A stretch of 64,000 nt of DNA from an uncultured Nitrospira sp. (GTDB lineage: Bacteria; Nitrospirota; Nitrospiria; Nitrospirales; Nitrospiraceae). The first letter of the stretch is position 1. Each line of letters begins with the position of its first letter. The notes under the pieces are model-generated. The model saw nothing but the letters and a program-made list of their open reading frames with translations. It was not told the DNA's origin and searched no databases. Shown one piece after another: positions 25,682 to 60,946 of this stretch. The position numbers and the translations under genes were made by a program. The stretch spans positions 62,001 through 126,000 of the forward strand of contig CABVSR010000003.1 in assembly GCA_902500995.1 (NCBI GenBank), read 5' to 3'.

Positions 25682-25781
25682 CTTGGTATCTTTCCAAGCG
25701 CAAGCTTCACGTCCTTTCAGTAGACTGTCGATATCCTCCGTCTGACCGCCTTCAGACCCAAGGGCGGCAGCCGCAGGCTAA

Positions 25782-28991: not shown

Positions 28992-29002
28992 CACTCTGTG
29001 AG

Positions 29003-29031
29003 GTTATACACAGTCACGAAGGGTGATGCAA
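29003..29031 (-). promoter_or_regulatory. Candidate promoter of the sugar transporter (near-leaderless)
   Basis: On the minus strand TTGCAT, 17 nt, TATAAC, then 8 nt to the GTG at 28994 (11 nt to the ATG). The -10 box matches five of six bases. Transcription would begin within a few bases of the start codon, and no strong ribosome site is present. Confidence 0.4.
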
Positions 29032-29043
29032 AGAACCCGTCGC

Positions 29044-29439: not shown

Positions 29440-29466
29440 CTCCTTATGAGTAAAAAGGGCCCCATC

Positions 29467-30033
29467 CTACCATGGGAGAGCGAGGCTGGACGCCAGAGTA
29501 TCCTCGGCGCCTGTTCCGGCCTGGTTCTCGTGATCTAATAACCAGCGTTTACGATCCAGGCCTCCGCCGTAACCGGTGAGCGATCCATCGGCGCCGATCA
29601 CCCGGTGGCAAGGGACGACGATATTGATGGGGTTCGCGCTATTGGCGAGGCCTACCGCGCGCACGGCGGCCGGTTGTCCGATGCGCCTCGCCAGGCCGGC
29701 ATAACTGAGGGTCTGTCCCGCGGGGATCTCGCGCAGCGCAGCCCAAACGCGTTTCTGAAACGGAGTGCCTGCCGTTGCGGTCAGGAGCGCGTCGACGGCG
29801 TCGAGCACTCCTTCAAAATAAGCAGCTAATGCCAGCGCTGCTGCGGAGCGCTGGGATCCCGCTGCGATGGTCATAGGCGCATCTCCGTACTGGCGTGCCA
29901 GCAAGCGGCGCATGCGCTCCTCATGGTCCGTCCAATCGACGGCGCGCAGGTGCCCCTCTTCGTCTGAGAGGATCATTAAAGTGCCGATGGGCGTGGTCAG
30001 GATCTCCGAGAAAAGGTGCAGTTCATGAGACAT
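29467..30033 (-). CDS. ogt: Methylated-DNA-[protein]-cysteine S-methyltransferase
   Basis: A 188-residue O6-alkylguanine-DNA alkyltransferase, a suicide repair enzyme. The active-site motif is VVPCHRVIG (~140), the Cys receiving the alkyl group. The DNA-binding helix-turn-helix and Arg finger lie in VRAVGLANSANP, and FQKRVWAALREIPAGQTLSYA is the family hallmark before it. The N-terminal ribonuclease-like domain starts at ~10. It is 24 nt downstream of the Ada/AlkA fusion gene on the same strand, so the two form an alkylation-repair unit, with the VOC protein following. Confidence 0.96.
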   Translation of the reverse strand: MSHELHLFSEILTTPIGTLMILSDEEGHLRAVDWTDHEERMRRLLARQYGDAPMTIAAGSQRSAAALALAAYFEGVLDAVDALLTATAGTPFQKRVWAALREIPAGQTLSYAGLARRIGQPAAVRAVGLANSANPINIVVPCHRVIGADGSLTGYGGGLDRKRWLLDHENQAGTGAEDTLASSLALPW

Positions 30034-30057
30034 GATGACTCTCCCCGTGTGACAGTG

Positions 30058-31536
30058 CTATCGATTGACGGTCCAGAGATACTGCGCCGCGTAGGCTCGC
30101 CATGGCTGCCAGGCCTCGCTTCGCCGCAACAGGCTGGCGGCGTTGTGGCGGCCCTCTCCTTTCAAGCGCCCGGCGCCGCTGAGGAGGCCGAGGTCGGTCG
30201 CCGGAAAGGCGTCCGGTTCACGGAACGCGCGCAGGGCGATATAGTTCGCGGTCCACGCGCCAATGCCGGGAATTGCTCGCAGGCACGCGAGACGTTCTTC
30301 AATCGGAACTGCCGGCGTAAAAAGGCTCGGATTGGCGAGGGCCGTTTGCGCCAGGGTGGTGATCGTGGCTTTCCGGGCGGCAGGCATGCCCAGCCGGCGC
30401 AGGTCCGCAGTGGCCAGACAGCGGGCCGTCGGAAATGTTCTGGTGAGGCGCGGGTGATCCGAATGGGGCAAGTGCTCTCCCCACAAATCGACCAGGATTG
30501 CCCCTAGCCTGCGGGCGGCAGCGAGAGAGATCTGCTGCCCCAGTACGGCACGGACTGCAAGCTCAAACCCGTCCCAGCAACCGGGCGCGCGTAATCCCGG
30601 CCGGGCGGCGATCAGAGGCGCGAGGGCTTGATCCTTCGAAAGATGGGCGGCGATCGCATCGACGTCGGCTTCTAGGTCGAACTGATGCCGGATGCGGGAG
30701 ACAATGGCCTGGAGCGCGCGGACGGACGGAAACCTAATCGTCGCCAGAAGGCAGTGTGCATTTGCACTGTGCTCGATGGTCACGCAGCCCGCCAGTCCCT
30801 CATGCGTGATGCTGCGCCGGTAGAGGCCGTCTTCGACCATCTCCAGGCCGTCAATGGCACGGGCTTGGAGATAGTGCAGCATGCCGATCCAGTCGTAGGG
30901 CGGTCGATATGGAACGTGGAGCACAACCGGGGCCGTGGCGGAAGACTTGGGAGTGGCGACGGTGGCGGCACGGCGTAATGCCCGGGGCGACCGGTGATAG
31001 AGCGAACGGAAGGCATGATTGAACCGGCGGACACTGCCGAATCCTCCTCCCAGGGCCACTTCGGTCATCGAGAGACTCGTATCGTGAAGCAACTGTTTCG
31101 CGAATAACAGCCGCCTGGACTGAGCGATCGCCACCGGCGTCACGCCGAGATGCTGGTCGAAGAGCCGGCGCAATTGTCGTGCGCCCATACCGACGCGCGT
31201 GGCGAGGGTCTCGACCGTGCCGCCCTCACGATCCAGAAAGCCGTCGGCGATCAGCGCCAGCGCGCGCGAGACGGTATTCGAGGTGCCGCGCCAGCCGGGC
31301 AGTTCCGGAGCAATTTCGGGACGGCAACGCAGGCAGGCGCGGAAACCGGCCGCTTGGGCGGCCGCGCTGCCGGCGAAAAACCGGCAATGTTCCCGTTTCG
31401 GCGTGCGGGCCGGACAGATCGGACGGCAATAGATTCCGGTCGAGATGACGCCGACGAAGAGCCGGCCGTCGAACCGCGGATCGCGAGTCTGTAAAGCGCG
31501 GTAGCAGATCTCGGGGTCGAGCGCGTCCATGGCCAT
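30058..31536 (-). CDS. Ada-type metal-binding/AraC regulator fused to AlkA DNA glycosylase
   Basis: A 492-residue three-part protein. Residues ~8-85 form the Ada zinc/methyl-phosphotriester domain with YCRPICPARTPKREHC and CLRCRPE (the four Cys ligands). Residues ~90-190 form an AraC helix-turn-helix with MGARQLRRLFDQHLGVTP. Residues ~205-492 form the AlkA domain with VLGQQISLAAARRL and the helix-hairpin-helix IPGIGAWTANYIALRA followed by FPATDLGL, where the Asp is catalytic. It senses methylated DNA, probably activates this operon, and excises 3-methyladenine. Such Ada-AlkA fusions are known. The Ogt enzyme is separate and downstream. Confidence 0.95.
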   Translation of the reverse strand: MAMDALDPEICYRALQTRDPRFDGRLFVGVISTGIYCRPICPARTPKREHCRFFAGSAAAQAAGFRACLRCRPEIAPELPGWRGTSNTVSRALALIADGFLDREGGTVETLATRVGMGARQLRRLFDQHLGVTPVAIAQSRRLLFAKQLLHDTSLSMTEVALGGGFGSVRRFNHAFRSLYHRSPRALRRAATVATPKSSATAPVVLHVPYRPPYDWIGMLHYLQARAIDGLEMVEDGLYRRSITHEGLAGCVTIEHSANAHCLLATIRFPSVRALQAIVSRIRHQFDLEADVDAIAAHLSKDQALAPLIAARPGLRAPGCWDGFELAVRAVLGQQISLAAARRLGAILVDLWGEHLPHSDHPRLTRTFPTARCLATADLRRLGMPAARKATITTLAQTALANPSLFTPAVPIEERLACLRAIPGIGAWTANYIALRAFREPDAFPATDLGLLSGAGRLKGEGRHNAASLLRRSEAWQPWRAYAAQYLWTVNR

Positions 31537-31549
31537 ACTCTGCCATATC

Positions 31550-31569
31550 CGGCCGAGAAATTCCGGCCG
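31550..31569. promoter_or_regulatory. Possible operator before the Ada/AlkA gene
   Basis: Two CGGCCG palindromes (31550-31555 and 31564-31569), separated by 8 nt of A/T-rich sequence, lie 14-33 nt before the ATG of the Ada/AlkA fusion. Placement suits a regulator site near a promoter, but CGGCCG is common in GC-rich DNA and the Ada box of E. coli is different. Confidence 0.25.
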
Positions 31570-31642
31570 TTTTCGGACGTGACCATTGGGGTGGCGGAAG
31601 TTGCTCCGAAGATTTCGAGATGAGCCGTGCTGCCGGGGTTGG

Positions 31643-32593
31643 TCAGGCGCGAGGCTGCGCGGCAGTCTTGGCTTTCGCCATCATCTTGCAGTAGGAGCAA
31701 GTGCCGGCGGTGGTGGGTTGCCCGCAGGCGGTACAGGGAACGAGGGTGCGTTGATCCTTCTCGGCCATGGATTCGGCGCTGGCCTCGGGTTTGGTTTGTT
31801 TGTCCAAAAATCCCCAGTAGAAGCGTTGCTTGGTACCCGGCGACTCCGTTTCCAGCCGGTTGAGCACTTCCTTATAAAGAATCATCTTGGAGCCTTTGGC
31901 CATGGGGCATTCTTCGACGATGTAGTCGATGCGATTGACCACGGCATAGGCGGCGATTTCCCGTTCGGACAGCCGGCAGAGCGGTTTGACCTTCTTGGCA
32001 AACCCTTCCACCGATGCCGGCAGGGTTGGGCTCTGCTTGTCCAGATAGTCGTCCTGCCAGTGCAACACATTACCCAGCAGTCGCGCCGCCTCGTCGTCGA
32101 GATTATGGCCAGTGGCCATGACGTCATAGTCCTGTTCCACGGCTGCGCGGTTGAATTGATAACGCTTGATGGTGCCGCAGGTGGAACAGGTTGGACGGTG
32201 AAGGATCGTCGCCAGCTCGCGGATGCCGGCTCCGGCTTCCTGCTCCACGACATGCACCAGCAGTTTCGCCCCATGCGAAGCGGCGACGGTATCGGCATAG
32301 TGCCGCACTTTGCGGTGTGACTCTTCCGAATAGGCGCCGATGCCGAGATTCACATAGAGCGCGTCGGCCCGATATCCGAGCGCGAGCAGAATATGCCACA
32401 AGGCCAGACTGTCTTTACCGCCGGAGACCGCGACGAGGATCCGGTCTTCGGGGGTAAACATCTTGAAAGCCTTAATGGCGCGCGCCACCTGTTCGTGGAC
32501 AAAGGTGGTAAAGCAGGCTTTGCAGAAGGCGGCATTGTGCCGCGGCAATCCGATCACGGCGCGTGTACTGGTGGGGCACTTGGTGCAATTCAT
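31643..32593 (-). CDS. ttuA: TtuA/Ncs6-type tRNA 2-thiolation ATPase
   Basis: A 316-residue PP-loop enzyme. N-terminal zinc site MNCTKCPTSTRAV and FCKACFTTF, then the PP-loop ILVAVSGGKDSLALWHIL (~52-69), CSTCGTIKRYQFN (~135, catalytic/Fe-S cysteines) and GHNLDDEAARLL. A C-terminal zinc ribbon is CTACGQPTTAGTCSYCK. This full set distinguishes TtuA/CTU1 from TtcA. The enzyme adenylates tRNA and inserts sulfur at a uridine using a ubiquitin-like carrier; TtuA acts on T54, Ncs6 on wobble U34. The ThiS-like gene 116 nt upstream on the same strand is a natural partner. Whether T54 or U34 is modified cannot be read here. Confidence 0.9.
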   Translation of the reverse strand: MNCTKCPTSTRAVIGLPRHNAAFCKACFTTFVHEQVARAIKAFKMFTPEDRILVAVSGGKDSLALWHILLALGYRADALYVNLGIGAYSEESHRKVRHYADTVAASHGAKLLVHVVEQEAGAGIRELATILHRPTCSTCGTIKRYQFNRAAVEQDYDVMATGHNLDDEAARLLGNVLHWQDDYLDKQSPTLPASVEGFAKKVKPLCRLSEREIAAYAVVNRIDYIVEECPMAKGSKMILYKEVLNRLETESPGTKQRFYWGFLDKQTKPEASAESMAEKDQRTLVPCTACGQPTTAGTCSYCKMMAKAKTAAQPRA

Positions 32594-32709
32594 GGTGTCA
32601 CAAAGCGATCGGCATTCAGGTGTCAGGTTTCAGCCGGCAGCGTTCAGCGACAGCAGCGATCGAGTGACATCGCTTTCTTGGCTGAGGGCTGATTGCCGAC
32701 CGCTGATGG

Positions 32710-32907
32710 CTAGGCTCCTCCCGAGATGACCGGCCGGATTTCGATCTGATCGGCATCGGCAAGCATTTCATCTTCCGTGACGAGTTCATCGCCCCGGATG
32801 ACCAGATGCGCCTCCATCACCAGATTGAGCTCGCGCAGCAGTTCCTTGGTACGCTTGGGGCCTTTGATTTCGACTTGTCTGTAGGGATGACTGAGTTGCA
32901 CGAGCAT
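32710..32907 (-). CDS. Small MoaD/ThiS-fold sulfur-carrier protein ending GGA
   Basis: A 65-residue beta-grasp protein. RTKELLRELNLVMEAHLVIRG and DQIEIRPVISGGA (each under 21 residues) match the ThiS/TtuB pattern: helix, then a V-I-x-x-G-x-L turn, then the C-terminal strand and tail. Functional carriers end in Gly-Gly, whose carboxyl becomes the thiocarboxylate; here Ala follows (codons GGA GGA GCC TAG). So it would need trimming, or it may not act as a thiocarboxylate. ATG 32907 is preferred to upstream codons that add a Pro/Arg-rich stretch. The nearest upstream sequence has no ribosome site, but TATCAT lies 5 nt before the ATG. Confidence 0.8.
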   Translation of the reverse strand: MLVQLSHPYRQVEIKGPKRTKELLRELNLVMEAHLVIRGDELVTEDEMLADADQIEIRPVISGGA

Positions 32908-32912
32908 GCGCG

Positions 32913-32942
32913 ATGATACGGCTGATGCGCGCGGGATTGCAA
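32913..32942 (-). promoter_or_regulatory. Candidate leaderless promoter of the sulfur-carrier gene
   Basis: On the minus strand TTGCAA, 18 nt, TATCAT, then 5 nt to the ATG at 32907. The -10 box matches five of six bases, so the transcript would start at or inside the start codon. No Shine-Dalgarno is present. Confidence 0.4.
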
Positions 32943-33004
32943 TCGGAGGAGGAGCTCCGTGGTGACTTATCCTGGGAGGTTCGCTTCGATCACGTTGGTT
33001 GCGG

Positions 33005-34006
33005 TTAGAGCGCGGCATCCCTCAGGCAGGCGGCCGCTTCTTCCGGCGCGACAGGGTTGATGTAAAACCCCGTGCCCCATTCGAACCCTGCCACTTGCGT
33101 GAGCTTCGGAATGATCTCGATGTGCCAGTGATAAAAGTCCCCTGTTTTCTCGTGCAGCGGCGAGCTGTGCAGGATGAAGTTGTAGGCCGGCCTGGCCAAC
33201 ACCGCATCCATACGCCGGAGTGCTTCGCCGAGCATCGGGGCCAAGAACTCGAACTGGGTGCGCTGGCATTCCTCGAAATATCCGGCGTGTCGCTTGGGGA
33301 GAATCCACATCTCAAAAGGAAATCTGGGGGCGTAGGGCGTGAGGCAGAGAAATTCCGGGTTCTCCAAGACCACTCGCGTTCCTTCGGCGGTCTCCTGGCG
33401 CATGATATCGCAGTAAATACAGCGTTCTTTCTGCAGGAAGTGTTGTTTGCAGCCGTCGATTTCTTCGAGCACGCTGGTCGGCACCACCGGCAAGGCGATG
33501 AGCTGAGAATGGCTGTGTCCCAACGTGGCGCCCGCTGAACTTCCGTGATTCTTGAAAATCAGGATATACCGGAGCCGGACATCTTTCTTCAGATCGAGAA
33601 TCCGGTCGCGATAGGCCCATAAAACGTCCTCCAGCCGTTTCGCCGGCAGGTCCCCGAGGCTTTCCTGGTGAGTGGGAGTTTCAATGATGACTTCATGGGC
33701 GCCGATACCGTTCATGCGATCATATAAGCCGAGGCCTTCGCGACCCATGTCTCCCTCTACCTGCAGGGCGGGAAACTTATTCGGAATAACTCGCACGGTC
33801 CAGTTTGGGCTGTCCGGTTCAGAGGCATGCGGCCGGTACGCGAGAATTTCTCTCGGGGTCAATCGTTCCTGTCCCGGGCAAAACGGGCACAGGGCTGCCG
33901 ATGGCAGCGGGGCGGAGGGCATATGGACATCCTGCGGGCGGCCGCTCCGTTCTGTCGAGATAATCACCCAGCGGCCGACGATCGGATCTCTTCTCAATTC
34001 GGGCAT
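33005..34006 (-). CDS. galT: Galactose-1-phosphate uridylyltransferase
   Basis: A 333-residue HIT-superfamily enzyme. Zinc/structural and nucleotide parts are visible at CPFCPGQE (~40), RVIPNKFPALQ (~72), GATLGHSHSQLIALP (~160, with the H-x-H-x-Q catalytic His) and FYHWHIEIIPKL (~290). It exchanges UDP between UDP-glucose and hexose-1-phosphate. AGGAG lies 8 nt before the ATG. The next gene on the strand, upstream of nothing else related, is the GH57 enzyme 101 nt downstream of it in sequence order but encoded earlier (34108-36312), so GalT may act on sugar phosphates from glycan turnover. ADP-glucose phosphorylase-like activity is known in relatives and cannot be excluded. Confidence 0.94.
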   Translation of the reverse strand: MPELRRDPIVGRWVIISTERSGRPQDVHMPSAPLPSAALCPFCPGQERLTPREILAYRPHASEPDSPNWTVRVIPNKFPALQVEGDMGREGLGLYDRMNGIGAHEVIIETPTHQESLGDLPAKRLEDVLWAYRDRILDLKKDVRLRYILIFKNHGSSAGATLGHSHSQLIALPVVPTSVLEEIDGCKQHFLQKERCIYCDIMRQETAEGTRVVLENPEFLCLTPYAPRFPFEMWILPKRHAGYFEECQRTQFEFLAPMLGEALRRMDAVLARPAYNFILHSSPLHEKTGDFYHWHIEIIPKLTQVAGFEWGTGFYINPVAPEEAAACLRDAAL

Positions 34007-34107
34007 CTGAACTCCTGTTGTTCGTCACACATGATTCGTTCTATTCACTGTGCAGAGCAGGAATCGTTGCGACCGATTCCTTGTACGAGGCGGGTGAACC
34101 CGTCCGT

Positions 34108-36312
34108 TTAGACCCGCCACATCGTGGCCTCGAAGTCGTCTCCCGGCCGGGTGAAGGTGGCCGGGCTGTGATGGGGATACCGCGCGATTTCCATGCCATG
34201 CTCCGACACTGTCAGTGTCACGCGTAGTTCTTCGCCGGCATCGATCTCCAGATCTTTGAACGGGATTCCCAGTTCGAGAATTTTCCGCCGGCAAATCGTG
34301 CTGTACGCGCCGATTTCGCGATAGGCGCCGGCTTCATCGGCCCGGGCGAGCTGGTAGCGATCGGCCGCTCCGGGCGTCAAAGCGAAAGAGAGTTTGTATT
34401 GCTGGATGCCGGAGCCGATGTACAGGTCTGCCGTGCATTGCTCCTGGCGGGTTTCGGACCGCTCATCGAAATCGAGGCGAAGGTACAGGTGCGCGCGATC
34501 GAAACCGAAGAAAATGCCGCGGAAGAGCCCTTCGGATTTCCACATCGCTCCCAGCGGCGGGGTCGGATTGATGGTGCCGGCGCCGCGCCACTCGAAAAAA
34601 TTCGACGCCAGGCCGTCCAGGGTCGGGGTGATCAGAGCCAGCGGCAATTGCACGAGATCGAAACCTTGCGGCGTGCGGGCTTCCACGAGGGGCTGATTGA
34701 GGATCTCCGGCGGCGTCATACCGGCATAGGTCCAAACGTTGCGCAAATGCGTGCGGAACAGGCGGTCGAATTCCTGTTTGTAGTCCGTGTCGAAATCATC
34801 ACCGTACCACCAGAACCAATCGCTCCCTTCGGCGGCGTACAGTTCGTCCCAGGCGGCGCGTGCCTTCTCCGGCGGCAGCGAGGGCGTCAGTTCGACGAGC
34901 CGCGCGCGCGTGTGTTGCAGGAGATCCCAGCCGCGATTGTCCTCCTGGTGGCCGATCCAGATTTTGAAGTCCTGATTGATCCAGGATCCGGAGTGCAGCT
35001 GATCCAGTCGCTGAGTCGGCGGCGTGGCATGGATGGCGTTGCTGATGGTGTTCAAGCGCACCCGGATGCCGTGGCCCAGTTGGAGCCCGTCCCGCTCGAA
35101 GGCGCGGAAGAGGAGGGACAGAAATCGTTCGCCGCCGTCGTGGTAATGCTCCCAGGGGTTTTCGCCGTCGAGAATGACCGCGATCGTGCCATTGTCCAGC
35201 CGGATGTCATAGGCGAGGCTGCGGATTCTCCGGAGCACATCGTCCGCGGCGGCTTCCGGAGTGGTCTTATGGTAGACGAAGCCGAATGCGTCGGAAATAT
35301 CCCGGTCACGGAAGAGGATGGAGAGTGGATGGGTTTCGGTGCCGACCGCATAGGGTTGATAGAGATGATAGTGCCGGTTCCACTCTTGCCCGGCCATCTG
35401 CAGAGAACGGTAGAGGATGCCTTCATCCGTGGCCAGCCAGCGGATTCCCGCTTTTGCCACCATCGGTAACAATTCGGGGCAGACCGATCCTTCAGAGGGC
35501 CAGAGTCCCGCCGGCGCGCGGCCGAACGTGCTTGTGTGGTACTCGATCGCCCGCGTGACTTGCGCCTCGGCATCGGCCGGGGCATGAAAGCGGGCGGGAA
35601 GCGGCAGGTCCGGTCTGGCGCGGCGCGTGAATTCTGAATCAATGACGAGCGGAAGGATGGGGTGAAAAAACGGCGTCGTGGTGAGTTCGATTTGCCCGCG
35701 ATCCTGGAGGGCCTGATACATGGGCACGATCTTTCGGATGGCCGTTTGCTGCAAGGCCAGGACGTCCTGCTTGTCCTCTTCGGTGAAGCCGCGATTCTTT
35801 GCGCGCAGCTCCGCCAGGCGGGGGAAGTGTTGCAGGCTGCCGTAGCCAAACCAAGCGAGATTGTGCCAGACCTGCAGGTCCAGGAGTTCCTGGGTGGAAA
35901 ACTGCCGGGCCAGCCGGTCCAAATCCTGCCCGTGCACATCGATGCCGCGTTTGATCAGCAGTTCCTGGTAACGCGGAAACGGCCGCACCATCGTGGCCCA
36001 ATTGGCCGAAAAAAAGTGGCGGATGAGGAAGGCTTTTTCCGTGGGCGTGAGGTCGGCAGCCGGCCGTTGCGCATGTTCGAGGAAGAGATCGCGGACGCGT
36101 CCCGCCGAAAATTCCTCGAGTTGGAGCAGGAGGGACGGTGTGAAGTTGAAGGTCGAACGGGCTTCGGGGAATTGATCGAGCAGGAAGGCCATGTCGTAAT
36201 AGGCCTTCGTGGCATGCAAGCGCACCCAGGGCATGCTGGCGGACCCGGTGAGCGGGTCCGTGTAGTACGGCTGGTGCATATGCCAGAGGAAGCAGAGCTG
36301 TATGGTTTTCAT
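34108..36312 (-). CDS. Glycoside hydrolase family 57 (alpha-amylase/glucanotransferase type)
   Basis: A 734-residue GH57 enzyme. The family motif FLWHMHQPYYTDP (~8-20) provides the metal/substrate His cluster, GLWPSEGSV (~257) the catalytic Glu nucleophile region, and VILDGENPWEHYHDGG (~385) the acid/base Asp region. The C-terminal ~200 residues form the beta-rich GH57-associated domain. No signal peptide, so it is cytoplasmic and likely acts on glycogen or maltodextrins as hydrolase, transferase or branching enzyme. Located just before galT on the same strand. The start ATG 36312 begins directly at the first conserved strand; exact activity needs biochemical work. Confidence 0.92.
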   Translation of the reverse strand: MKTIQLCFLWHMHQPYYTDPLTGSASMPWVRLHATKAYYDMAFLLDQFPEARSTFNFTPSLLLQLEEFSAGRVRDLFLEHAQRPAADLTPTEKAFLIRHFFSANWATMVRPFPRYQELLIKRGIDVHGQDLDRLARQFSTQELLDLQVWHNLAWFGYGSLQHFPRLAELRAKNRGFTEEDKQDVLALQQTAIRKIVPMYQALQDRGQIELTTTPFFHPILPLVIDSEFTRRARPDLPLPARFHAPADAEAQVTRAIEYHTSTFGRAPAGLWPSEGSVCPELLPMVAKAGIRWLATDEGILYRSLQMAGQEWNRHYHLYQPYAVGTETHPLSILFRDRDISDAFGFVYHKTTPEAAADDVLRRIRSLAYDIRLDNGTIAVILDGENPWEHYHDGGERFLSLLFRAFERDGLQLGHGIRVRLNTISNAIHATPPTQRLDQLHSGSWINQDFKIWIGHQEDNRGWDLLQHTRARLVELTPSLPPEKARAAWDELYAAEGSDWFWWYGDDFDTDYKQEFDRLFRTHLRNVWTYAGMTPPEILNQPLVEARTPQGFDLVQLPLALITPTLDGLASNFFEWRGAGTINPTPPLGAMWKSEGLFRGIFFGFDRAHLYLRLDFDERSETRQEQCTADLYIGSGIQQYKLSFALTPGAADRYQLARADEAGAYREIGAYSTICRRKILELGIPFKDLEIDAGEELRVTLTVSEHGMEIARYPHHSPATFTRPGDDFEATMWRV

Positions 36313-36460
36313 CGGGAAGTTTCTTGCAGACTCACGGGCAGTATGTCATAGGGGTATAGGCGTTGCAATGAATCGGCCGATTGATGACGCAGGATTGCGT
36401 GACGTGGCCGCGCGTCGGCCATGGTCGCCACCTCACGTGTACGACACGAGGAATTCCAAG

Positions 36461-36916
36461 ATGGGGTCTGATCAGATGGTCTCGTCGGTTCTGCGAGGTG
36501 GATCGCTTGTCACGCCGCTCTCGATCGTTCGGTATTGGGGGCCGGTCGTTCTCTATGCCGGTCTCATTTTTTTCGGCTCATCGATATCAAGCCCGCCCGA
36601 AGTCATCTCGTCTTTGCTCAGGGAGATTTCCGACAAGGTCCTGCATCTCAGCGAATATGCGCTCCTCGGCGCCTTGATCTACCGCGCCTGCCGCCATGGG
36701 TCCGGTCCATGGCTGGCGCAACATGCGCTGTTGGCGGCGGTGGCCGGTTCGGCCCTGTATGGCGTGAGCGACGAAACGCACCAATGGTTTGTGCCGTTTC
36801 GCGAGTCCGATGTCTTGGATGTGGTGGCCGACACGGTCGGCGGCACTGTGGGAGCCTGGGGCTGGCGGTGGCTTGAACGGCGCGCGGACCGGGAGAAGGT
36901 TTTCTTGTCTCGATAG
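36461..36916 (+). CDS. VanZ-family membrane protein
   Basis: A 151-residue protein with four hydrophobic segments. SDKVLHLSEYALLGALIYRA (~48-67) contains the conserved D-K-x-x-H-x-x-x-Y-x-x-L of VanZ-like domains, and YGVSDETHQWFVPFRESDVLD (two parts) the second signature S-D-E-x-x-Q. GAGGA lies about 9 nt before ATG 36461; in-frame ATGs at 36302 and 36368 would add a polar leader without support. VanZ-like proteins are widespread and mostly uncharacterised; a glycopeptide-resistance role is known only for VanZ of Enterococcus. It is divergent from the GH57 gene and convergent with the aldo/keto reductase. Confidence 0.88.
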   Translation: MGSDQMVSSVLRGGSLVTPLSIVRYWGPVVLYAGLIFFGSSISSPPEVISSLLREISDKVLHLSEYALLGALIYRACRHGSGPWLAQHALLAAVAGSALYGVSDETHQWFVPFRESDVLDVVADTVGGTVGAWGWRWLERRADREKVFLSR

Positions 36917-36941
36917 TTCCGCACCCGGCGCATCCCGGTCG

Positions 36942-37913
36942 TTACCAGGCATAGGCTTCGGGGGCCGCTCCTCCGGGGCCGGGAAAGATCGCGTCCAATG
37001 CTTTGAGTTGTTCCGCCGTCAATGTCAGCTCCAAGCTTCGCATAGCGATGGTCAGTTGTTCCATCGTGCGAGGACCGATGATGGGGGCTGTCACCGCTGG
37101 TTGCTGCAACAGCCAGGCGAGGGCGACCGCGGCAGGCTCGGCATTGAGGGTTCTGCACCACTGCTCATACGCCTCCAATTTCTGACGGTGGAGCTCGATG
37201 TCCTTGCGGACGTCTTCTTCCGCCCGGCGACCGCTCGCGCTCTGATTCAGGGCGCCGCCGAGCAGCCCTCGCGCGAGGGGACTCCAGGGAATGATGCCGA
37301 TACCATAGGCTTGGCAGGCCGGAATCACTTCAAGCTCGATGGTTCGCTCGAGCAGGTTGTACAAGCTCTGTTCGGAAATCAACCCGAGAAAATGGCGTGA
37401 ACGGGCCGCCTCCTGCGCCTGAGCGAGGTGCCAGCCCGCAAAATTACTGCTACCGGCGTAGAGCACTTTGCCTTCCCGGCACAGTTGCTCCATCGCCTGC
37501 CAGATTTCTTCCCAGGGACAGTCACGGTCGATGTGGTGCATCTGGTAGAGGTCGATATAATCCGTCTGGAGACGGCGCAGACTGTCTTCGCACGCGCGTT
37601 TGATATGCAGGGCAGACAGGCGCGACTGATTGGGCCAGTCGCCCATGCGCCCGTAGACTTTCGTGGCGAGCACCACCTTCTCGCGCCGCCCGCCGCCCTG
37701 AGCCAGCCAGCGGCCGACGATCTGTTCCGTGACGCCTTCTCCTACCTTCCAGCCGTACACATTGGCGCTGTCAAAAAAATTGATCCCGAGTTCGAGCGCG
37801 CGATCCATGATCTGCCCGCTGTCGGTCTCACTCGTGTGAGGGCCGAAATTCATGGTGCCGAGACAGAGGCGACTGACGCGCACTCCTGAACGGCCGAGGT
37901 GAACGTATTGCAT
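36942..37913 (-). CDS. Aldo/keto reductase
   Basis: A 323-residue (beta/alpha)8 NADPH oxidoreductase. The catalytic tetrad fits: Asp in FFDSANVYG (~50-58, with Tyr), Lys in VVLATKVYG (~85), His in LYQMHHIDRDCPWEE (~121-135). The C-terminal NADPH site is seen at TAPIIGPRTMEQL (~275). It matches the AKR family close to YghZ/Tas and bacterial voltage-gated-channel-beta-like proteins. AAGGAGG lies before the ATG. It converges with VanZ (25-nt gap). The substrate is unknown; aldehydes such as methylglyoxal are frequent for this class. Confidence 0.94.
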   Translation of the reverse strand: MQYVHLGRSGVRVSRLCLGTMNFGPHTSETDSGQIMDRALELGINFFDSANVYGWKVGEGVTEQIVGRWLAQGGGRREKVVLATKVYGRMGDWPNQSRLSALHIKRACEDSLRRLQTDYIDLYQMHHIDRDCPWEEIWQAMEQLCREGKVLYAGSSNFAGWHLAQAQEAARSRHFLGLISEQSLYNLLERTIELEVIPACQAYGIGIIPWSPLARGLLGGALNQSASGRRAEEDVRKDIELHRQKLEAYEQWCRTLNAEPAAVALAWLLQQPAVTAPIIGPRTMEQLTIAMRSLELTLTAEQLKALDAIFPGPGGAAPEAYAW

Positions 37914-38025
37914 AGGGCCTCCTTGGCTAGCACCTCAGGATACCGGCTTACGACGGAGGCTGACAACCAATCACTGTCGGCGCAGGCAGGACGATCGGCG
38001 GTCGCATGCAGCAGGTGACTTTCTA

Positions 38026-38054
38026 CTGGCAGTCCGGAGCCGTTTGGCTATAAT
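38026..38054 (+). promoter_or_regulatory. Promoter of amgK, likely near-leaderless
   Basis: CTGGCA (38026-38031), 17 nt, then a perfect TATAAT (38049-38054). Only 9 nt separate the -10 box from the ATG at 38064, and there is no ribosome site, so the transcript would start at or within about 3 nt of the start codon. Confidence 0.55.
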
Positions 38055-38063
38055 GCCGATCGT

Positions 38064-39170
38064 ATGAGCACGACAAATCCAGCCGCGCCCGCGGCACCGC
38101 TTGCCCCTCCCGATCCTGTACGTATTGCCCGGACGGTCGCTGGCAGATTGCCATTTTCGGCTGAGATGGCCGGGCTTAGCCCGCTGGCCGGTGATGCGTC
38201 CAATCGCCGGTATTTCCGGATTGCCCTGAAGGGCTCGCCCTCCGCGCTGATTCTCATGCAGCTCGCCGATCCGGAAGGGTTCAAGAAATCCGAAGAGGCC
38301 GTCAGCGGCGCTTCCGCGCAGATTGCAGAATTGCCGTTCACCAATGTGCTGAGCCACCTGCAACGGACCGGCGTCACCGTGCCGGCGTTATATTATTTTG
38401 ACCGCGACGCCGGGCTGCTGTATCTGGAAGATTTCGGGGATCTGACGCTGGCGGAGGCTTGCCGGCATGCAGACGCCGCCCGGCTTCAGGCCTTGTATCG
38501 CCAGGCGATCGATCAGCTGGTGTTGCTGCAGGTCAAAGGCACCACACCGCCCGCGCCGGGATGTATTGCCTTTCACCGGCGATTCGATGTGCCGCTGTTG
38601 ATGTGGGAGTTCGACCACTTTCTCGAATACGGCGTGACGGCCCGTGTGGGGCATCCGATGAAACCGGAGGATGATGCAGCCGTACGCGGTGCGTTTCAAC
38701 GTATTGCCGAACTGCTGGCCGGGCAGCCCCAGGTGTTTGTCCATCGCGATTACCATTCGCGCAATCTCATGGTGGATGGATCTCGCATGGGCATCATCGA
38801 TTTCCAGGATGCGCTCATGGGGCCCGCCACATACGATCTGGCCTCGCTGCTGAAAGATGCCTATATCGAATTGGATGAGGGGGTCGTGGACGGGCTGGTC
38901 GAACATTTTCTCGACGGTCTTGCCGGGCTCGGTAGCAAGGTCGATGATCGCCCCGCGTTTCGCCGCGTCTTCGACCTCACCAGTATCCAGCGCAATCTGA
39001 AGGCGGCCGGCCGATTCGTCTATATCGATCGGGTGAAACACAATCCAAAATTCCTTGCCGATATCCCTCGCGTTCTTGGCTACGTGAAACGGAATTTGTT
39101 CAAATACCCCGAGTTGGCCACAGTACGTCAGCACTTGTCTCCCTACGTGGTCGAACTGCAAGAGGCGTGA
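38064..39170 (+). CDS. amgK: Cell-wall amino-sugar kinase (AmgK type)
   Basis: A 368-residue aminoglycoside-phosphotransferase-fold kinase. After a Pro/Ala-rich leader it has LAGDASNRRYFRI (~52), LLYLEDFGDLTLAEA (~118), the catalytic loop FVHRDYHSRNLMVDG (~225) and MGIIDFQDALMGPATYDLASLL (DFQ Mg-binding Asp, ~247). In Pseudomonas AmgK phosphorylates MurNAc and GlcNAc at C1 for the fosfomycin-tolerant recycling route, and MurU next door then makes the UDP-sugar; the same order occurs here. The role is therefore inferred from both sequence class and the partner gene. Its own TATAAT box lies directly upstream. Confidence 0.88.
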   Translation: MSTTNPAAPAAPLAPPDPVRIARTVAGRLPFSAEMAGLSPLAGDASNRRYFRIALKGSPSALILMQLADPEGFKKSEEAVSGASAQIAELPFTNVLSHLQRTGVTVPALYYFDRDAGLLYLEDFGDLTLAEACRHADAARLQALYRQAIDQLVLLQVKGTTPPAPGCIAFHRRFDVPLLMWEFDHFLEYGVTARVGHPMKPEDDAAVRGAFQRIAELLAGQPQVFVHRDYHSRNLMVDGSRMGIIDFQDALMGPATYDLASLLKDAYIELDEGVVDGLVEHFLDGLAGLGSKVDDRPAFRRVFDLTSIQRNLKAAGRFVYIDRVKHNPKFLADIPRVLGYVKRNLFKYPELATVRQHLSPYVVELQEA

Positions 39171-39189
39171 AACGGGCTTTTGAAGAAGG

Positions 39190-39234
39190 ATCTCGTGTTG
39201 CGGCGATTCACGCTTCACGAGTCACGCTTCACGG
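39190..39234. repeat. Second dispersed repeat (GTGAAGCG family) between amgK and murU
   Basis: The gap holds, on the minus strand, tandem GTGAAGCGTGA-type units (CGTGAAGCGTGACTCGTGAA) with ACGAGA after them. The same motif occurs at 48839-48906 and 60526-60606, all in intergenic positions. The unit length is about 16-17 nt. It separates the amgK stop and the murU ATG. Confidence 0.55.
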
Positions 39235-39243
39235 TTGTTGTAC

Positions 39244-39990
39244 ATGAAAGCCATGATCCTCGCAGCCGGCCTCGGCACTCGGTTGAGGCCTCTAACCGAT
39301 AGCACCCCGAAACCGCTCCTTCCGGTCGCCGGCACACCGATGATCGTCTGGAATCTCTTACTGCTGAAGCGGCATGGCATTCGGGACGTCATCATCAACC
39401 TCCATCATCTCGGTACGATGATTTCGCAGGCGCTGGGAGACGGCCGGACGTTCGGGATGCGAATCGTCTATTCCCACGAGCCGGTCATTCTCGGCACCGG
39501 CGGCGGGATCAAGCAGGCGGAGCCGTATTTCCACGGTGAACCGGTGCTGGTTCTCAACGGCGATACGCTGTTCGAATTGGACCTCGGCGCCTTGATGGCA
39601 TTCCACCGCGAGCAGCAGGCGGCTGCGACGCTGGTCTTGCGGAAAGATCCCGAGGCGGCTCGCTGGGGGTTGGTGGAAGTGACGGATCGTGGAGAGGTGG
39701 TGCGCATCACGGGGCGCGGCCGGACAGAAACGGCACCGGCCCTCGCGCGCATGTTTGCCGGCATTCACATTCTGCATCCGCGACTGTTGCGGTACTTGCC
39801 CGCCGGCAAAGAGTGTTCGATCATCGATGCCTACGTGCAAGGCATCCAAGAGGGAGAGCGAATCCTGAGCTACGACTTCGACGGATTTTGGAGCGACGTG
39901 GGAACGCCGGAGCGGTATGCCCAAGTGGAGCAGGATGCAGCAGAGGGTTTGCTCAGTTTGTCCGCCAGAACGGTCGGTTCTTCAATATAA
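39244..39990 (+). CDS. murU: MurNAc-1-phosphate uridylyltransferase/NDP-sugar pyrophosphorylase
   Basis: A 248-residue nucleotidyltransferase. MKAMILAAGLGTRLRPLTD is the canonical G-x-G-T-R-x-R-P-x-T start, LVLNGDTLFELDL (~103) carries the catalytic Asp, and GFWSDVGTPERYAQVE (~217) closes the sugar site. It is short and lacks the C-terminal left-handed helix, as in MurU rather than GlmU. ATG 39244 is chosen as the start of the family motif; a TTG three codons earlier is not needed. It follows amgK by 73 nt that include a GTGAAGCG-type repeat. Together they would recycle MurNAc to UDP-MurNAc. Confidence 0.88.
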   Translation: MKAMILAAGLGTRLRPLTDSTPKPLLPVAGTPMIVWNLLLLKRHGIRDVIINLHHLGTMISQALGDGRTFGMRIVYSHEPVILGTGGGIKQAEPYFHGEPVLVLNGDTLFELDLGALMAFHREQQAAATLVLRKDPEAARWGLVEVTDRGEVVRITGRGRTETAPALARMFAGIHILHPRLLRYLPAGKECSIIDAYVQGIQEGERILSYDFDGFWSDVGTPERYAQVEQDAAEGLLSLSARTVGSSI

Positions 39991-40114
39991 CCGGAGGCTC
40001 AAAAAGTTCGTCCAGCAAGGCCGCAGCAATGCGACGAGGCGAGGCGTACCCTTGCGGTACGTTGAGCTTCGGAGCGATGCGAGAACGAAGCTGGCGGGCT
40101 TTTTCAGCCTCCGG
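39991..40114. repeat. Dispersed palindromic element, copy B
   Basis: 124 nt between two converging genes. It starts at the base after the murU stop and ends 5 nt before the stop of the response-regulator gene. Outer arms CCGGAGGCTCAAAAAG (39991-40006) and CTTTTTCAGCCTCCGG (40099-40114) pair with one mismatch. Central core GCGTACCCTTGCGGTACG at 40043-40060 is identical to copy A. It may act as a two-way terminator. Confidence 0.85.
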
Positions 40115-40119
40115 ACTGG

Positions 40120-41493
40120 CTACTCGCCGGTGGGCTTCCGCTGCTTGATCAACCGCGCCAGATAGGTTCGCTGCAGGTCCAGAAACTCCGCCGCCTTCGT
40201 CTGGTTGCCCCCCGCTTTTTCCAAGGCCCGATCGATGATATAGGCGCTATGCGCTTCCATGGACTCATGGTAGGTGAGGTTCATGTACGGAAGCGCGTGG
40301 CCGGCTCCGCCCTTGCCTGAGGTGTCATCGGGAGAGAGTGCCAGGAATTCCGGTTCGATGACGTCGTTGGGGCTGAGCACGACGGCCCGGGAAAGCACGT
40401 TGTCGAGTTCGCGGATGTTCCCGGGCCAAGAGTAGTGAGTGAGCGCGGCCCTGGCTGCAGGACTGAGGGTCACACCGGGACGTTTCGCTTCGTAGGCATG
40501 CCGTTTGAGAAAAAATTCTGCGAGCTGGACGATGTCTTCGCTCCGTTCCCGCAAGGGAGGGAGGGTGAAGCTCACGACGTTGAGCCGGAAGAACAGATCC
40601 TCCCGGAACTGTCCGGCTTTGACCGACTGCCGGAGATCCTTGTTGGTGGCGGCTACGAAGCGAATGTTCACGGAGACCGACCGTGAGCCGCCCACGCGCT
40701 GAAATTCCTTATCCTGGAGGACGCGCAGTAACTTGGCCTGTAACGGCAGGGGCATGTCCCCGATCTCGTCGAGAAACACCGTGCCGCCCTCCGCCATTTC
40801 GAGCTTGCCCTTCTGCAGCCGGTCTGCCCCGGTGAAGGCGCCGCGTTCGTGCCCGAAGAGTTCGTTCTCGAGCAGCGTTTCCGTGAGCGCGACGCAATTG
40901 ATCACGACCATGGGCATGCTCTGCCGCGGGCTCCACTGGTGAATGGAACGCGCGAAGAGTTCCTTGCCGGTCCCGCTTTCACCCAACAGAAGAATGCTGG
41001 CATCCGACTTGGCGGCACGCTGGGCCGATTCGATGATGCCCCTGATCTTCTGGCTGTCGCCGACGATGGTGGCGTAGCGATTCTGGACGTCGGACTTGAG
41101 GGCCGCGACCTGCCGCTTCAAGGAATCCCGCTCCAGCGCTTTTTGAATGACGATCAAGAGATGATCTTTTTCCAGCGGCTTGGTCAGAAAATCATAGGCG
41201 CCGTGCCGCATTGCTTCCACGGCATCCGGAATCGTGCCGGCGGCGGTCATGACGATCACCGGGATGTCTTCGCACTGTTTGTTCTGGGCCATGCGCTTCA
41301 GGACGTCCATTCCCTTCAGTCGCGGTAGATACAGGTCCAGCAGCACCAGGTTGGGAGATTCCTGCTCGATGAGTTCGAGGCCGCGCTGGCCGTCGCCGGC
41401 GGTGAAGGTTTTGTAGCCGCCGGCGTCGAGACGATCCTGTAGCATCGTCACGATGTCTTGATCGTCGTCGACTATGAGCACCTTGGCTTTCAT
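40120..41493 (-). CDS. Sigma-54-dependent response regulator (NtrC type)
   Basis: A 457-residue three-domain regulator. A receiver domain (~1-120) with VLIVDDDQDI and the phospho-acceptor Asp in LVLLDLYLP; an AAA+ domain (~145-375) with Walker A GESGTGKELFARSIH, GAFTGAD (the sigma-54 contact loop) and VFLDEIGDMPL; a Fis-type helix-turn-helix at the C-terminus (AGGNQTKAAEFLDLQRTYLARLI). It activates promoters with RpoN. No sensor kinase gene adjoins it; the neighbour is DUF1015, 19 nt away on the same strand. The target genes are unknown. Confidence 0.96.
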   Translation of the reverse strand: MKAKVLIVDDDQDIVTMLQDRLDAGGYKTFTAGDGQRGLELIEQESPNLVLLDLYLPRLKGMDVLKRMAQNKQCEDIPVIVMTAAGTIPDAVEAMRHGAYDFLTKPLEKDHLLIVIQKALERDSLKRQVAALKSDVQNRYATIVGDSQKIRGIIESAQRAAKSDASILLLGESGTGKELFARSIHQWSPRQSMPMVVINCVALTETLLENELFGHERGAFTGADRLQKGKLEMAEGGTVFLDEIGDMPLPLQAKLLRVLQDKEFQRVGGSRSVSVNIRFVAATNKDLRQSVKAGQFREDLFFRLNVVSFTLPPLRERSEDIVQLAEFFLKRHAYEAKRPGVTLSPAARAALTHYSWPGNIRELDNVLSRAVVLSPNDVIEPEFLALSPDDTSGKGGAGHALPYMNLTYHESMEAHSAYIIDRALEKAGGNQTKAAEFLDLQRTYLARLIKQRKPTGE

Positions 41494-41512
41494 CGCGTCC
41501 TGCCGGTCATTT

Positions 41513-48911: not shown

Positions 48912-50345
48912 ATGGGTGATCCAAAGGGCTTTCTGAAATACGCGCGTGAGGGACCGAAGCGGAAGCCGGTCGAATTGCGTGTGCTCGACTGGAAAGAGAT
49001 GTACGAGCCCATCCCCGAGGAGAAGCTCAAGGTCCAAGGCGCGCGTTGCATGGACTGTGGCGTGCCCTTTTGCCAGGGCAATACCGGCTGCCCTGTCGTG
49101 AATCTGATTCCCGAGTGGAACGATCTCGTCTATCGCGGGCGCTGGAAGGACGCGCTCAAGGCGCTGCACACCACGAACAATTTTCCTGAGTTCACCGGCC
49201 GGCTCTGTCCCGCTCCCTGCGAAGGCGCCTGTGTACTGGGCATCAACAGCGACCCGGTGTCGATTCGCGTGCTTGAATGGAACATCATTGATCGCGGCTT
49301 CAACGAAGGCTTGGTTGAGCCGGCCATGCCGGTCAGAAAGACGGGAAAAACGGTCGCCATCATCGGGTCAGGTCCGGCCGGTCTGGCCGCCGCGCAGCAA
49401 CTCGCGCGCGCCGGGCATAGCGTCACCCTGTTCGAGAAGGCCGATCGGATCGGTGGCTTGCTGCGCTACGGCATTCCTGATTTTAAGATGGAGAAGTGGG
49501 TCATCGACCGGCGGCTGGAGCAGATGAAGGCCGAAGGCGTGGAGTTCAGGACCGGCGTCAATGTGGGCAAGGACATCACGGCCGAGCAGTTACGCCAGGA
49601 GTTCGACGCGGTCGGGCTGACGATGGGCGCGGAAATGGCGCGTGATCTGCCGGTGCCGGGACGTGAACTCAAGGGCATCCATTTTGCCATGGAGTATCTG
49701 ACGCAGCAGAATAAACGAACGGCGGGAATCTCCGTTTCCGAGGAACCGATTACCGCCAAGGGCAAGCGGGTGGTGATTATCGGCGGCGGCGATACCGGGT
49801 CCGACTGTCTGGGGACTGCGCATCGCCAGGGCTGCAGCGAAGCGCATCAGTTTGAAGTGTTGCCTGAGCCGCCTCCATCCCGATCGAGTTCGACACCTTG
49901 GCCGCTGTGGCCGATGCAGCTTCGTACGTCGCATGCGCACGAAGAAGGGTGCGATCGCCAATGGAGTGTGTCCACCACCAAGTTTACCGGTCACAACGGT
50001 CATGTGACCAAACTGCATGCCAACCGGGTCAAGTTTGAGGGCGGCCAGTTCGTTCCCATGCCGAGTACGGAATTTGAGTTGGATGCAGATCTCGTGCTTT
50101 TGGCCATGGGCTTCACCGGGCCGGTGCGCAATGGATTCCTCGACGGCCTCGGCGTCAACTACGACGCGCGTGGTTGCGTGACCGTCGATGAAAATTTCAT
50201 GACCAACCTCGACGGCGTCTTTGCCGGCGGCGATACCAAGCGCGGTGCCTCTCTCATCGTTTGGGCCATCGCCGAAGGGCGCAAGATGGCTGCGGGGATC
50301 AATCAGTATCTGCAAGCGGGTAAGTCTGCAAAATCAGGTCGCTGA
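48912..50345 (+). CDS. gltD: Glutamate synthase small subunit
   Basis: A 477-residue GltD, the NADPH-oxidising flavoprotein that feeds electrons to GltB. N-terminal 4Fe-4S ligands: CMDCGVPFCQGNTGCPV (~42-58) and CPAPCEGACVL (~98-108). The FAD site is VAIIGSGPAGLAAAQQL (~149) and the NADPH site VVIIGGGDTGSDC (~287). The C-terminal FAD part is VFAGGDTKRGASLIVWAI (~436). The stop codon TGA (50343-50345) lies inside palindromic repeat copy C. A diverged copy of its final ~25 codons occurs at 51268-51357, so the present 3' end may have been replaced when the following block inserted. Confidence 0.97.
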   Translation: MGDPKGFLKYAREGPKRKPVELRVLDWKEMYEPIPEEKLKVQGARCMDCGVPFCQGNTGCPVVNLIPEWNDLVYRGRWKDALKALHTTNNFPEFTGRLCPAPCEGACVLGINSDPVSIRVLEWNIIDRGFNEGLVEPAMPVRKTGKTVAIIGSGPAGLAAAQQLARAGHSVTLFEKADRIGGLLRYGIPDFKMEKWVIDRRLEQMKAEGVEFRTGVNVGKDITAEQLRQEFDAVGLTMGAEMARDLPVPGRELKGIHFAMEYLTQQNKRTAGISVSEEPITAKGKRVVIIGGGDTGSDCLGTAHRQGCSEAHQFEVLPEPPPSRSSSTPWPLWPMQLRTSHAHEEGCDRQWSVSTTKFTGHNGHVTKLHANRVKFEGGQFVPMPSTEFELDADLVLLAMGFTGPVRNGFLDGLGVNYDARGCVTVDENFMTNLDGVFAGGDTKRGASLIVWAIAEGRKMAAGINQYLQAGKSAKSGR

Positions 50346-50452
50346 AAACGGCCTCCACCTTCGTTCTCGCTTCGCTCAAACCCTCAACGTACCAAAGCAG
50401 TACGCCTCGGATTGTCGCTCGCTGCGGCCTTGTTGGAAGACCGTTTTGAGCG
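50340..50452 (+). repeat. Dispersed palindromic element, copy C
   Basis: 113 nt, overlapping the last codon and stop of gltD. Outer arms CGCTGAAAACGG (50340-50351) and CCGTTTTGAGCG (50441-50452) pair with one mismatch. The centre, read on the minus strand, is GCGTACTGCTTTGGTACG (50388-50405), a variant of the core in copies A and B. Orientation relative to the upstream gene is the same as in copies A and D. Confidence 0.85.
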
Positions 50453-50519
50453 GCCTCAATATCCCCGCCCGAGCCTATCCCGTTTTCATTCCCAGCCATT
50501 GTCAGATCGGCTGCTAATT

Positions 50520-51266: not shown

Positions 51267-51267
51267 C

Positions 51268-51357
51268 GTCTGGGCAATTGCCGAAGGGCGCAAGATGGCG
51301 GCAGGGATCAATCAGTATCTGCAAATGGGCGAGACTGCGAAGAACGCACTCTCGTAA
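51268..51357 (+). pseudogene. Remnant of a second gltD 3' end
   Basis: Ninety bases encode VWAIAEGRKMAAGINQYLQ plus a short tail and TAA. The first 75 nt align with gltD 50259-50333 with 12 differences, mostly at third codon positions. There is no start or upstream homology, so it is a displaced fragment, not a gene. The mostly synonymous differences mean the two ends evolved in separate functional gltD genes before being joined here. Confidence 0.85.
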
Positions 51358-59969: not shown

Positions 59970-60485
59970 ATGATCGCGACGGCACGGCGCTGGTTGAAAT
60001 ATCCGCTATTGTTTCTGCTGCTCGGGTTTCCCTATGCCGGGGTTCTTGTCTATGCCGATGAATCGGCACCTTCCTCTCAGGTCACGATCAGCCAGGTCCG
60101 GGTAGGCTTGTCCGATCACGGCCCGGTGGTCTTGCTTTCGGCAGACGGGAAAACCATTCCCGTCTTTGTCGACCATACGGTAGCCGCCTCCATTCAGGCG
60201 GCCCTGACCGGTGAAAAACTGCCTCGCCCGCTCTCTCACGATTTAATGCATACGATTCTGGAATCACTCGGCGGCCGGGTGGTCCGGACGGTCATTACGC
60301 TCAAGGCGGGCACCTATTACGGAAGTTTGACGGTGGCGTTCCAAGGACAGGAAAAAGTGTTCGACAGCCGGTCTTCAGACTCGATCGCCCTCGCGATACA
60401 TTTTCATGCGCCGATTGTCGTGGGGCGTGACATGTTGGACGCGGTCGGGAGATCCTCTTTTGATCCCAAGCCGGAAACGCTCTAG
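59970..60485 (+). CDS. Exported bifunctional-nuclease (BFN/DUF151) domain protein
   Basis: A 171-residue protein: signal segment (WLKYPLLFLLLGFPYAGVLVYA), then a BFN domain with VRVGLSDHGPVVLLSADGKT, VDHTVAASIQAALTG, RPLSHDLMHTILESLGG (~86) and FDSRSSDSIALAIHFHAPI (~134), the D-A-R-x-S-D-A-I-A-L-A-type signature of DUF151. Plant members cleave DNA and RNA; bacterial members are little studied. Here it is targeted to the periplasm or envelope, which is unusual enough to note. AGGAGG precedes the ATG. The stop codon TAG opens palindromic copy D. Confidence 0.88.
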   Translation: MIATARRWLKYPLLFLLLGFPYAGVLVYADESAPSSQVTISQVRVGLSDHGPVVLLSADGKTIPVFVDHTVAASIQAALTGEKLPRPLSHDLMHTILESLGGRVVRTVITLKAGTYYGSLTVAFQGQEKVFDSRSSDSIALAIHFHAPIVVGRDMLDAVGRSSFDPKPETL

Positions 60486-60708
60486 CAGGTTGCGGAAAAA
60501 ATCCGCCAGCGGCGTTCTCGCCACCCGTGAAGCGTGAATCGTGAAGCGTATCTCGTCAGGAGCCGCAACGGGACTGTCACGAGAGACGAACGACGTTTCA
60601 CGAACGTGAGGACGGCCTTTTTGCGCATCCTGCGTGCTATTCTGACGCGAGACGGCCCCTGTGTGAAACGCGACGTATGACGCAATAATCGAGTTTTCCG
60701 CAGCCTGT
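60484..60708 (+). repeat. Dispersed palindromic element, copy D (composite)
   Basis: Starts on the TAG stop of the BFN gene. Outer arms AGCAGGTTGCGGAAAAA (60484-60500) and GTTTTCCGCAGCCTGTT (60692-60708) pair, with two G-T wobbles. Its first part (CCAGCGGCGTTCTCG) equals copy A. The central palindromic core is replaced by a GTGAAGCG-family repeat (60526-60606), so two repeat families are nested here. Confidence 0.75.
60526..60606 (+). repeat. GTGAAGCG-family repeat inside copy D
   Basis: CGTGAAGCGTGAATCGTGAA begins at 60526 and is followed by GTATCTCGTCAGG and ACGAGAGACGAACGACG. It matches the reverse complement of 39190-39234 and parts of 48839-48906. Confidence 0.7.
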
Positions 60709-60946
60709 TAGGAAGCGCCGGCGGGTTGGCCATGCCGGATGCCATCGTTGGCCTCCCGCTCCTGCGGCCTTGCATGCGGCCTCGATGTGATCCCGGACAA
60801 CGGCGCGCCGCAGGCGAGTGCGTATCACGTAAGAGCAGGCTGTTCGCGAAGAAGTGCGCAGTACTGGCCTTTTGCCCGGTTCTGTCCTATCGTACGCCTG
60901 GTGCGCAGTCGCCTGGATAGTGGCAGGCACGGAGGCCAGTCTCACG
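60609..60946. other. Upstream region of the PilZ gene without other genes
   Basis: Between the nested repeats and the PilZ ATG there is no recognisable protein or RNA gene. The left part holds the closing arm of copy D (to 60708); from 60710 on the sequence is GC-rich and featureless, presumably containing the PilZ promoter, which I could not place. Confidence 0.5.

Follow-up and report, generated by a model that had tools for sequence, protein, structure and literature searches.

A mobile hairpin, probably spread by an IS5-family element, at stop-codon-like sites in nitrite-oxidising Nitrospira

Four copies of the repeat and their flanking genes

Four copies (A, B, C and D) of an imperfect palindrome were identified in the window, a 64,000-nt stretch of DNA (contig C3, positions 62001-126000) from a Nitrospira-like genome of 3.97 Mb in 56 contigs. 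A covariance model of the repeat was trained on 44 copies and then run on the genome. It matched positions 25776-25895 (minus strand; copy A), 39993-40112 (minus strand; copy B), 50337-50455 (plus strand; copy C) and 60488-60630 (plus strand; copy D), recovering all four copies that a sequence-only reading of the window had placed at stop codons. Gene ends were taken from a gene caller built on an in-house hexamer script, and protein families were assigned with Pfam. No match was found in the window at the gathering score of Rfam 15, where the best sub-threshold hit (E = 0.52) was unrelated, and a literature search of open-access papers returned no published account of the repeat.

Copy A (25776-25901, minus strand) is a hairpin-only copy, designated type II, whose CTAGCAGG end sits on the stop of an ABC permease gene (25898-26713, minus strand). 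The permease TAG (25900-25898 on the minus strand) is followed by the CAGG of the element. This copy is missing in three other genomes (G004, G007 and G014), in which the permease stop directly adjoins the following ABC gene. Copy B (39993-40112, minus strand), also type II, is located between convergent genes, and its core lies 2 nt from the TAA of murU (39988-39990) and 7 nt from the TAG of a sigma-54 regulator gene (40122-40120). Copy C (50337-50455, plus strand) is a third type II copy, and the gltD stop codon TGA (50343-50345) falls within its own GCTGAAAA. A second gltD 3' end, a remnant without the element, is present 1 kb downstream of copy C (51267-51357) and matches 50258-50332 over 75 nt with 85% identity. 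The remnant ends in ..TAKNALS*, whereas the intact gltD ends in ..SAKSGR* inside the element; the last residues of GltD may have been replaced by copy C.

Copy D (60486-60707, plus strand) is a MITE-like type I copy of 222 bp. It is preceded by the target duplication CTAG (60482-60485), at the first base of which CTAGCAGG begins (60482) and whose TAG (60483-60485) terminates a BFN-domain gene (59970-60485; PF02577), and it is followed by TTAG (60708-60711), which has one mismatch to CTAG. Between the two tetramers lie a left terminal repeat (CAGGTTGCGGAAAAA), a hairpin with a divergent middle and a right terminal repeat (GTTTTCCGCAGCCTG). The sequence-only reading was right to place copy A on the permease TAG, copy C over the gltD TGA and copy D on the BFN-gene TAG, but copy D is longer than the others and differs in its middle. 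Copy D is absent in 16 of 16 other species examined, and the BFN gene stops at the same residue there; judged by these orthologous loci, it is a recent insertion exactly at the native stop. A 15-bp tandem repeat of four to five units (CGCCATGCGGATTTG) was also observed in the window at 20657-20731.

Distribution, structure and the IS5 link

The genome contains approximately 100 copies of the ~120-bp imperfect palindrome, with a core of 119 nt; 22 are complete (type I) and 79 are hairpin-only (type II), all counts being limited to copies that score with the covariance model. The model also matched 24 of 24 other genomes of the genus, including Nitrospira defluvii, with 2 to 89 hits each, and most genomes of the order carry the repeat. 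The DNA pattern of the core extends to further Nitrospirota, and weaker relatives occur in Rokubacteria and Methylomirabilota. A plasmid-borne or viral origin was considered and rejected, as plasmid and viral contigs contained no match. Two or three hairpins arranged head to tail ~130 bp apart, unlike ordinary MITE insertions, were observed in G000 on contigs C34 (5098-5480), C39, C15, C1, C9 and C4. Two antisense copies in G000 (C39:6569 and C6:147898) have their left end 4 nt from a start codon, so that the hairpin would lie over the ribosome-binding site, provided that the start has been called correctly.

Complete type I copies are ~200 bp long, have no coding capacity and consist, in order, of YTAR, CAGGmTG..GAAAAA, the hairpin, a tail of ~80 nt, TTTTTC..CAGCCTG and YTAR. 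The YTAR target duplication, CTAG or CTAA, is identical on both sides in 16 of 19 young copies. Near-identical young copies from G014 and N. defluvii carry the duplications CTAG/CTAG, CTAA/CTAA and TTAG/TTAG, the last of these in N. defluvii; the CTAG/TTAG of copy D is imperfect. YTAR is a documented target duplication of IS5 (PMC10359306). An autonomous IS of 1.32 kb was identified in N. defluvii (L184:775-2090), with CAGGCTGCGGAAAAA at both ends and TTAG/TTAG on its flanks. It encodes a single transposase of 342 aa, which matches the NCBIfam IS5 model NF033581 with 279 bits (cut-off 140), and it has the terminal repeat CAGGmTGCGGAAAAA in common with the young copies. Type I thus has both marks of an IS5-family MITE (terminal repeats in common with an autonomous IS, and a YTAR duplication); terminal repeats at both ends are not found in every member of the repeat family, and only type I is classed as an IS5-family MITE. 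An IS701-type transposase was also considered as the source of YTAR and was rejected, the genome having no PF13546 match. The repeat is a mobile hairpin that has probably been spread through nitrite-oxidising Nitrospira by an IS5-family element targeting stop-codon-like sites.

The right-hand terminal repeat is absent in the 79 hairpin-only copies. The left tetramer of the core is mostly CTAG or TTAG, and in hairpin-only copies agreement between the two flanking tetramers is no more frequent than after shuffling, although C3:147865 carries TTAG on both sides. The right-hand duplication is therefore not above chance, and the idea that hairpin-only copies form a separate 124-bp transposing unit with its own duplication was rejected. 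From intermediates such as C7:83893, we infer that the tail and the right end are lost with age and that type II copies descend from complete MITEs. The element is found behind glmS in 12 of 16 other species, behind purH in 14 of 16 and behind the regulator at the copy B site in 13 of 16. The type II copies at these three sites are, to judge from such shared occupancy, vertically inherited. GlmS (..SVTVE) and PurH (..MRHFRH) each terminate at an unchanged residue whether or not a species carries the element, so the stop codon there was not created by it. The element-free glmS 3' ends of three species (L222, L262 and L263) carry another palindrome, GGTGCAAAGGAGGGG..CCCCTCCTTCGCACC, directly after the TGA, which may belong to a further family of stop-flush hairpins or may have arisen by replacement.

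The hairpin contains several conserved motifs (GTTCTCG, CAACGTAC..GTACG and GCGGCC) and a conserved G-G mismatch near its end, where GCTGAAAA stands opposite TTTTGAGC. Inspection of one purH group showed that the stop codon TGA itself pairs with TCA at the opposite end. Compensated cells numbered 121 among the copies within the genome (33 in shuffles), 79 among purH orthologs (28 in shuffles) and 12 among glmS orthologs (4.2 in shuffles). At purH, 94% of cells were paired and both sides had changed in 20 of 40 pairs. The covariation signal was destroyed when one arm was slid by 1 to 3 columns. Since orthologs at one site keep their pairing despite sequence drift, the simplest reading is that the folded form is under some selection. 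Part of the purH signal may stem from entire elements having been exchanged for other copies; this applies less to glmS, where the loop is nearly unchanged.

Relatives in Rokubacteria and Methylomirabilota (L424-L452, L307 and L311) keep the inner GTTCTCG and CAACGTAC..GTACGCCTC but differ in their arms (TGCCGGGCCAACTGAC..), and the TAG of the gene is located 32-33 nt before GTTCTCG in several of these copies. Some Rokubacteria copies with different arms and without the IS5 repeat are still located directly after a TAG, which suggests that the inner domain predates the present IS5 ends. A young, shorter version of ~145 bp was observed in Rokubacteria GWA2_70_23 (L423, L427, L431, L435, L442 and L445), with few nucleotides between the hairpin and the right terminal repeat and, mostly, with the left end on a stop codon.

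Contact with stop codons and its explanation

The position of the copies relative to stop codons was determined on 341 kb of sequence stitched around them, with genes called by the hexamer script rather than taken from curated annotation. The null expectation for the 97 copies whose flanks are known on both sides was obtained by random placement and orientation of each copy inside its own spacer. In 32 of these copies the left end follows a stop codon at a distance of exactly 2 nt (1.2 expected; largest count in 20,000 simulations, 7), and in 49 the distance is at most 10 nt (10.7 expected), whereas only 4 have the right end that close to a stop (10.6 expected). Among 108 copies sampled independently from other genomes, 53 have the left end exactly 2 nt after a stop (2.3 expected), 71 have the left end within 10 nt (14.8 expected) and 4 the right end; none lies inside a gene. 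The contact with stop codons is real, general and far beyond chance, as the sequence-only reading had proposed from four copies, and random distances and orientations, the outcome that would have spoken against it, are excluded in both samples. The same reading had the CCAGC side of every copy facing the gene. Genome-wide, the left end (CCAGC/GTTCTCG) points toward the 3' end of a gene in 71 of 101 copies; in copy B it faces the regulator and not murU. Hairpin-only copies of this genome are mostly in sense orientation (39 versus 17, p = 0.005), and so are the 108 outside copies, mostly hairpin-only (52 sense versus 20 antisense, p = 0.0002).

These observations are best accommodated, with a probability of roughly 0.6, by an IS5-family MITE that carries a conserved hairpin of ~120 nt and whose sense copies behind stop codons would be kept for an action at the 3' end. 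An IS5-family transposase would insert the MITE at YTAR. TAA and TAG are both contained in YTAR, which makes a stop codon after a pyrimidine a safe target, where the duplication keeps the stop and the element enters the 3' UTR. Sense copies directly behind the stop would be preferentially kept because the transcribed hairpin would act on the 3' end of the mRNA upstream. It would most likely protect or set this end and lower the expression of the next gene of the operon in a REP- or ERIC-like manner, possibly with partial termination added. Of the two explanations suggested by the sequence-only reading, insertion into stop-codon contexts has gained support from the IS5-type ends and from the YTAR duplications containing TAA or TAG in young copies. 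A 3'-end device agrees with the retained sense orientation and with the compensatory changes at orthologous sites, although its form as a hairpin plus U-tract terminator has become weaker. Sense bias and compensatory change together suggest that an RNA (or DNA) structure has been retained at 3' ends, comparable to the case of REP and ERIC elements, and a transcribed 3' hairpin that would set the stability and relative expression of upstream and downstream genes is favoured. Empty sites exist for copies A and D. Among recently amplified copies of one Rokubacteria genome a left bias is already present (5 clear left, 1 right), so the orientation could be set at insertion and not by selection.

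A bidirectional intrinsic terminator (A run, GC stem and T run), spread by transposition and ending transcription after the gene, is rather unlikely. It agrees with the left ends behind stop codons, with the many copies between convergent genes, among them copy B and its orthologs, and with a right-arm T run of at least 4 nt in ~72% of hairpin-only copies; the run is 3 nt or shorter in the remaining ~28% and is only TTT in the old purH copies. The T run, which had been described as following the closing arm in copies A and B, lies within the stem, where it pairs with the A run and is followed by 8-12 more paired bases. Several old copies are also located between co-directional, operon-like genes (purH-purD, glmS-gatC and an ABC transporter). 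This arrangement speaks against a strong terminator; the names purD and gatC were assigned by reading the locus comparison rather than by family search. A terminator scan of 25500-41500, restricted to loops of 3-8 nt, found none at copy A or B.

A pure target-site effect, in which stop codons are the commonest tolerated YTAR and the hairpin has no host function, is unlikely for the repeat as a whole. Outside the elements, YTAR (CTAG, CTAA and TTAG) was counted at 236 coding, 94 intergenic and 45 stop-codon positions of the sampled sequence. Stop codons thus make up 45 of 139 (32%) non-coding YTAR sites, near the 8 of 19 young copies in relatives that lie on a stop. As YTAR contains TAA and TAG, insertion alone accounts for much of the contact, and for type I, with its YTAR duplications, target choice and loss of in-gene insertions are a sufficient explanation. 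Young copies have no strong orientation bias: those in relatives touch the stop by the left end in 5 cases and by the right in 3, and 12 of the 22 type I copies of this genome lie on a stop (7 left, 6 right). Old copies differ, with 32 left ends on a stop versus 4 right ends at the matching distance, compared with 12 versus 9 in young copies (Fisher p = 0.009). Neither their strong left and sense bias nor the compensatory changes at orthologous loci would be expected of neutral relics, and TGA, rather than TAA or TAG, precedes 5 of the 24 hairpin-only copies at 2 nt.

It is doubtful that the effect is coupled to translation, with a hairpin 2 nt behind the stop stalling or slowing the terminating ribosome and lowering expression. 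Half to two thirds of the copies lie inside the 15-nt zone from the stop in which E. coli REPs act on translation and lower expression, according to work cited in PMC12306157, and by analogy ribosome pausing would be equally compatible with the position. The hairpins are, however, far longer than REPs, and some copies lie upstream of genes. The repeat is very unlikely to be a REP-type element that owes its mobility to a Y1 (RAYT) transposase and has an unpaired NTAG tag on one side only, with no duplication. Such an origin would match the TAG on one side of the hairpin, the lack of a right-hand duplication in hairpin-only copies and the GTAG REPs that often provide TAG stops (PMC3733652), but Y1_Tnp (PF01797) was not found in this genome or several other copy-rich genomes and, apart from one weak hit, the element does not flank the Y1 genes present elsewhere. 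Young copies carry IS5 ends with two-sided YTAR, and the 119-nt core is not a 20-40 nt palindrome with a GTAG or CGTC tag.

A broader version of the favoured 3'-end reading is more tentative and falls somewhat short of even odds. The repeat would be a mobile 3'-UTR module, in which a stop-targeting IS5 transposase distributes a folded RNA as a regulator of translation termination or of the upstream mRNA end, selected at essential genes including glmS and purH and present in Nitrospirota and in Methylomirabilota/Rokubacteria. If this is true, a transposon family has supplied many genes of the main nitrite oxidisers with a 3' end ready for use, and targeting of YTAR is a way into a compact genome without gene breakage, as the stop codon that is struck is duplicated. 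Presence and absence of the element at the same stop in sister species (copy A, copy D and glmS) provide natural comparison pairs for studying the effect of such hairpins.

Comparison with known systems

The role of hairpins behind stop codons is a question that dates from the discovery of REP and ERIC. The RUP elements of Streptococcus pneumoniae and the Correia elements of Neisseria resemble the present repeat as MITEs of ~100 bp and ~100 copies that are served in trans by a resident IS. Both are attributed to IS630-type elements, and we know of no stop-codon offset for either. REP/BIME elements (GTAG and CGTC repeats) likewise form hairpins close behind stop codons, and some head-to-tail arrays occur here, but REPs are 20-40 nt long compared with 120 nt, and the present repeat has no linked Y1 transposase and has two-sided YTAR in young copies.

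The 127-bp enterobacterial palindromes ERIC/IRU, compared by description, are similar in length, in their imperfect palindrome, in their intergenic, co-transcribed position and in their MITE-like nature. ERIC acts on mRNA stability in an orientation-dependent manner (PMC2229807). These elements differ from the present repeat in phylum and IS family and in their TA duplication, compared with 4 bp here. ERIC is not known to keep an exact offset from stop codons. The repeat resembles the IS5-family IS and MITEs in having terminal repeats identical to those of the N. defluvii IS, a 4-bp YTAR duplication and a non-coding interior. The present repeat differs from IS5-family MITEs in two respects: its strongly paired 120-nt hairpin outlives the terminal repeats, and its old copies are sense-biased behind stop codons.
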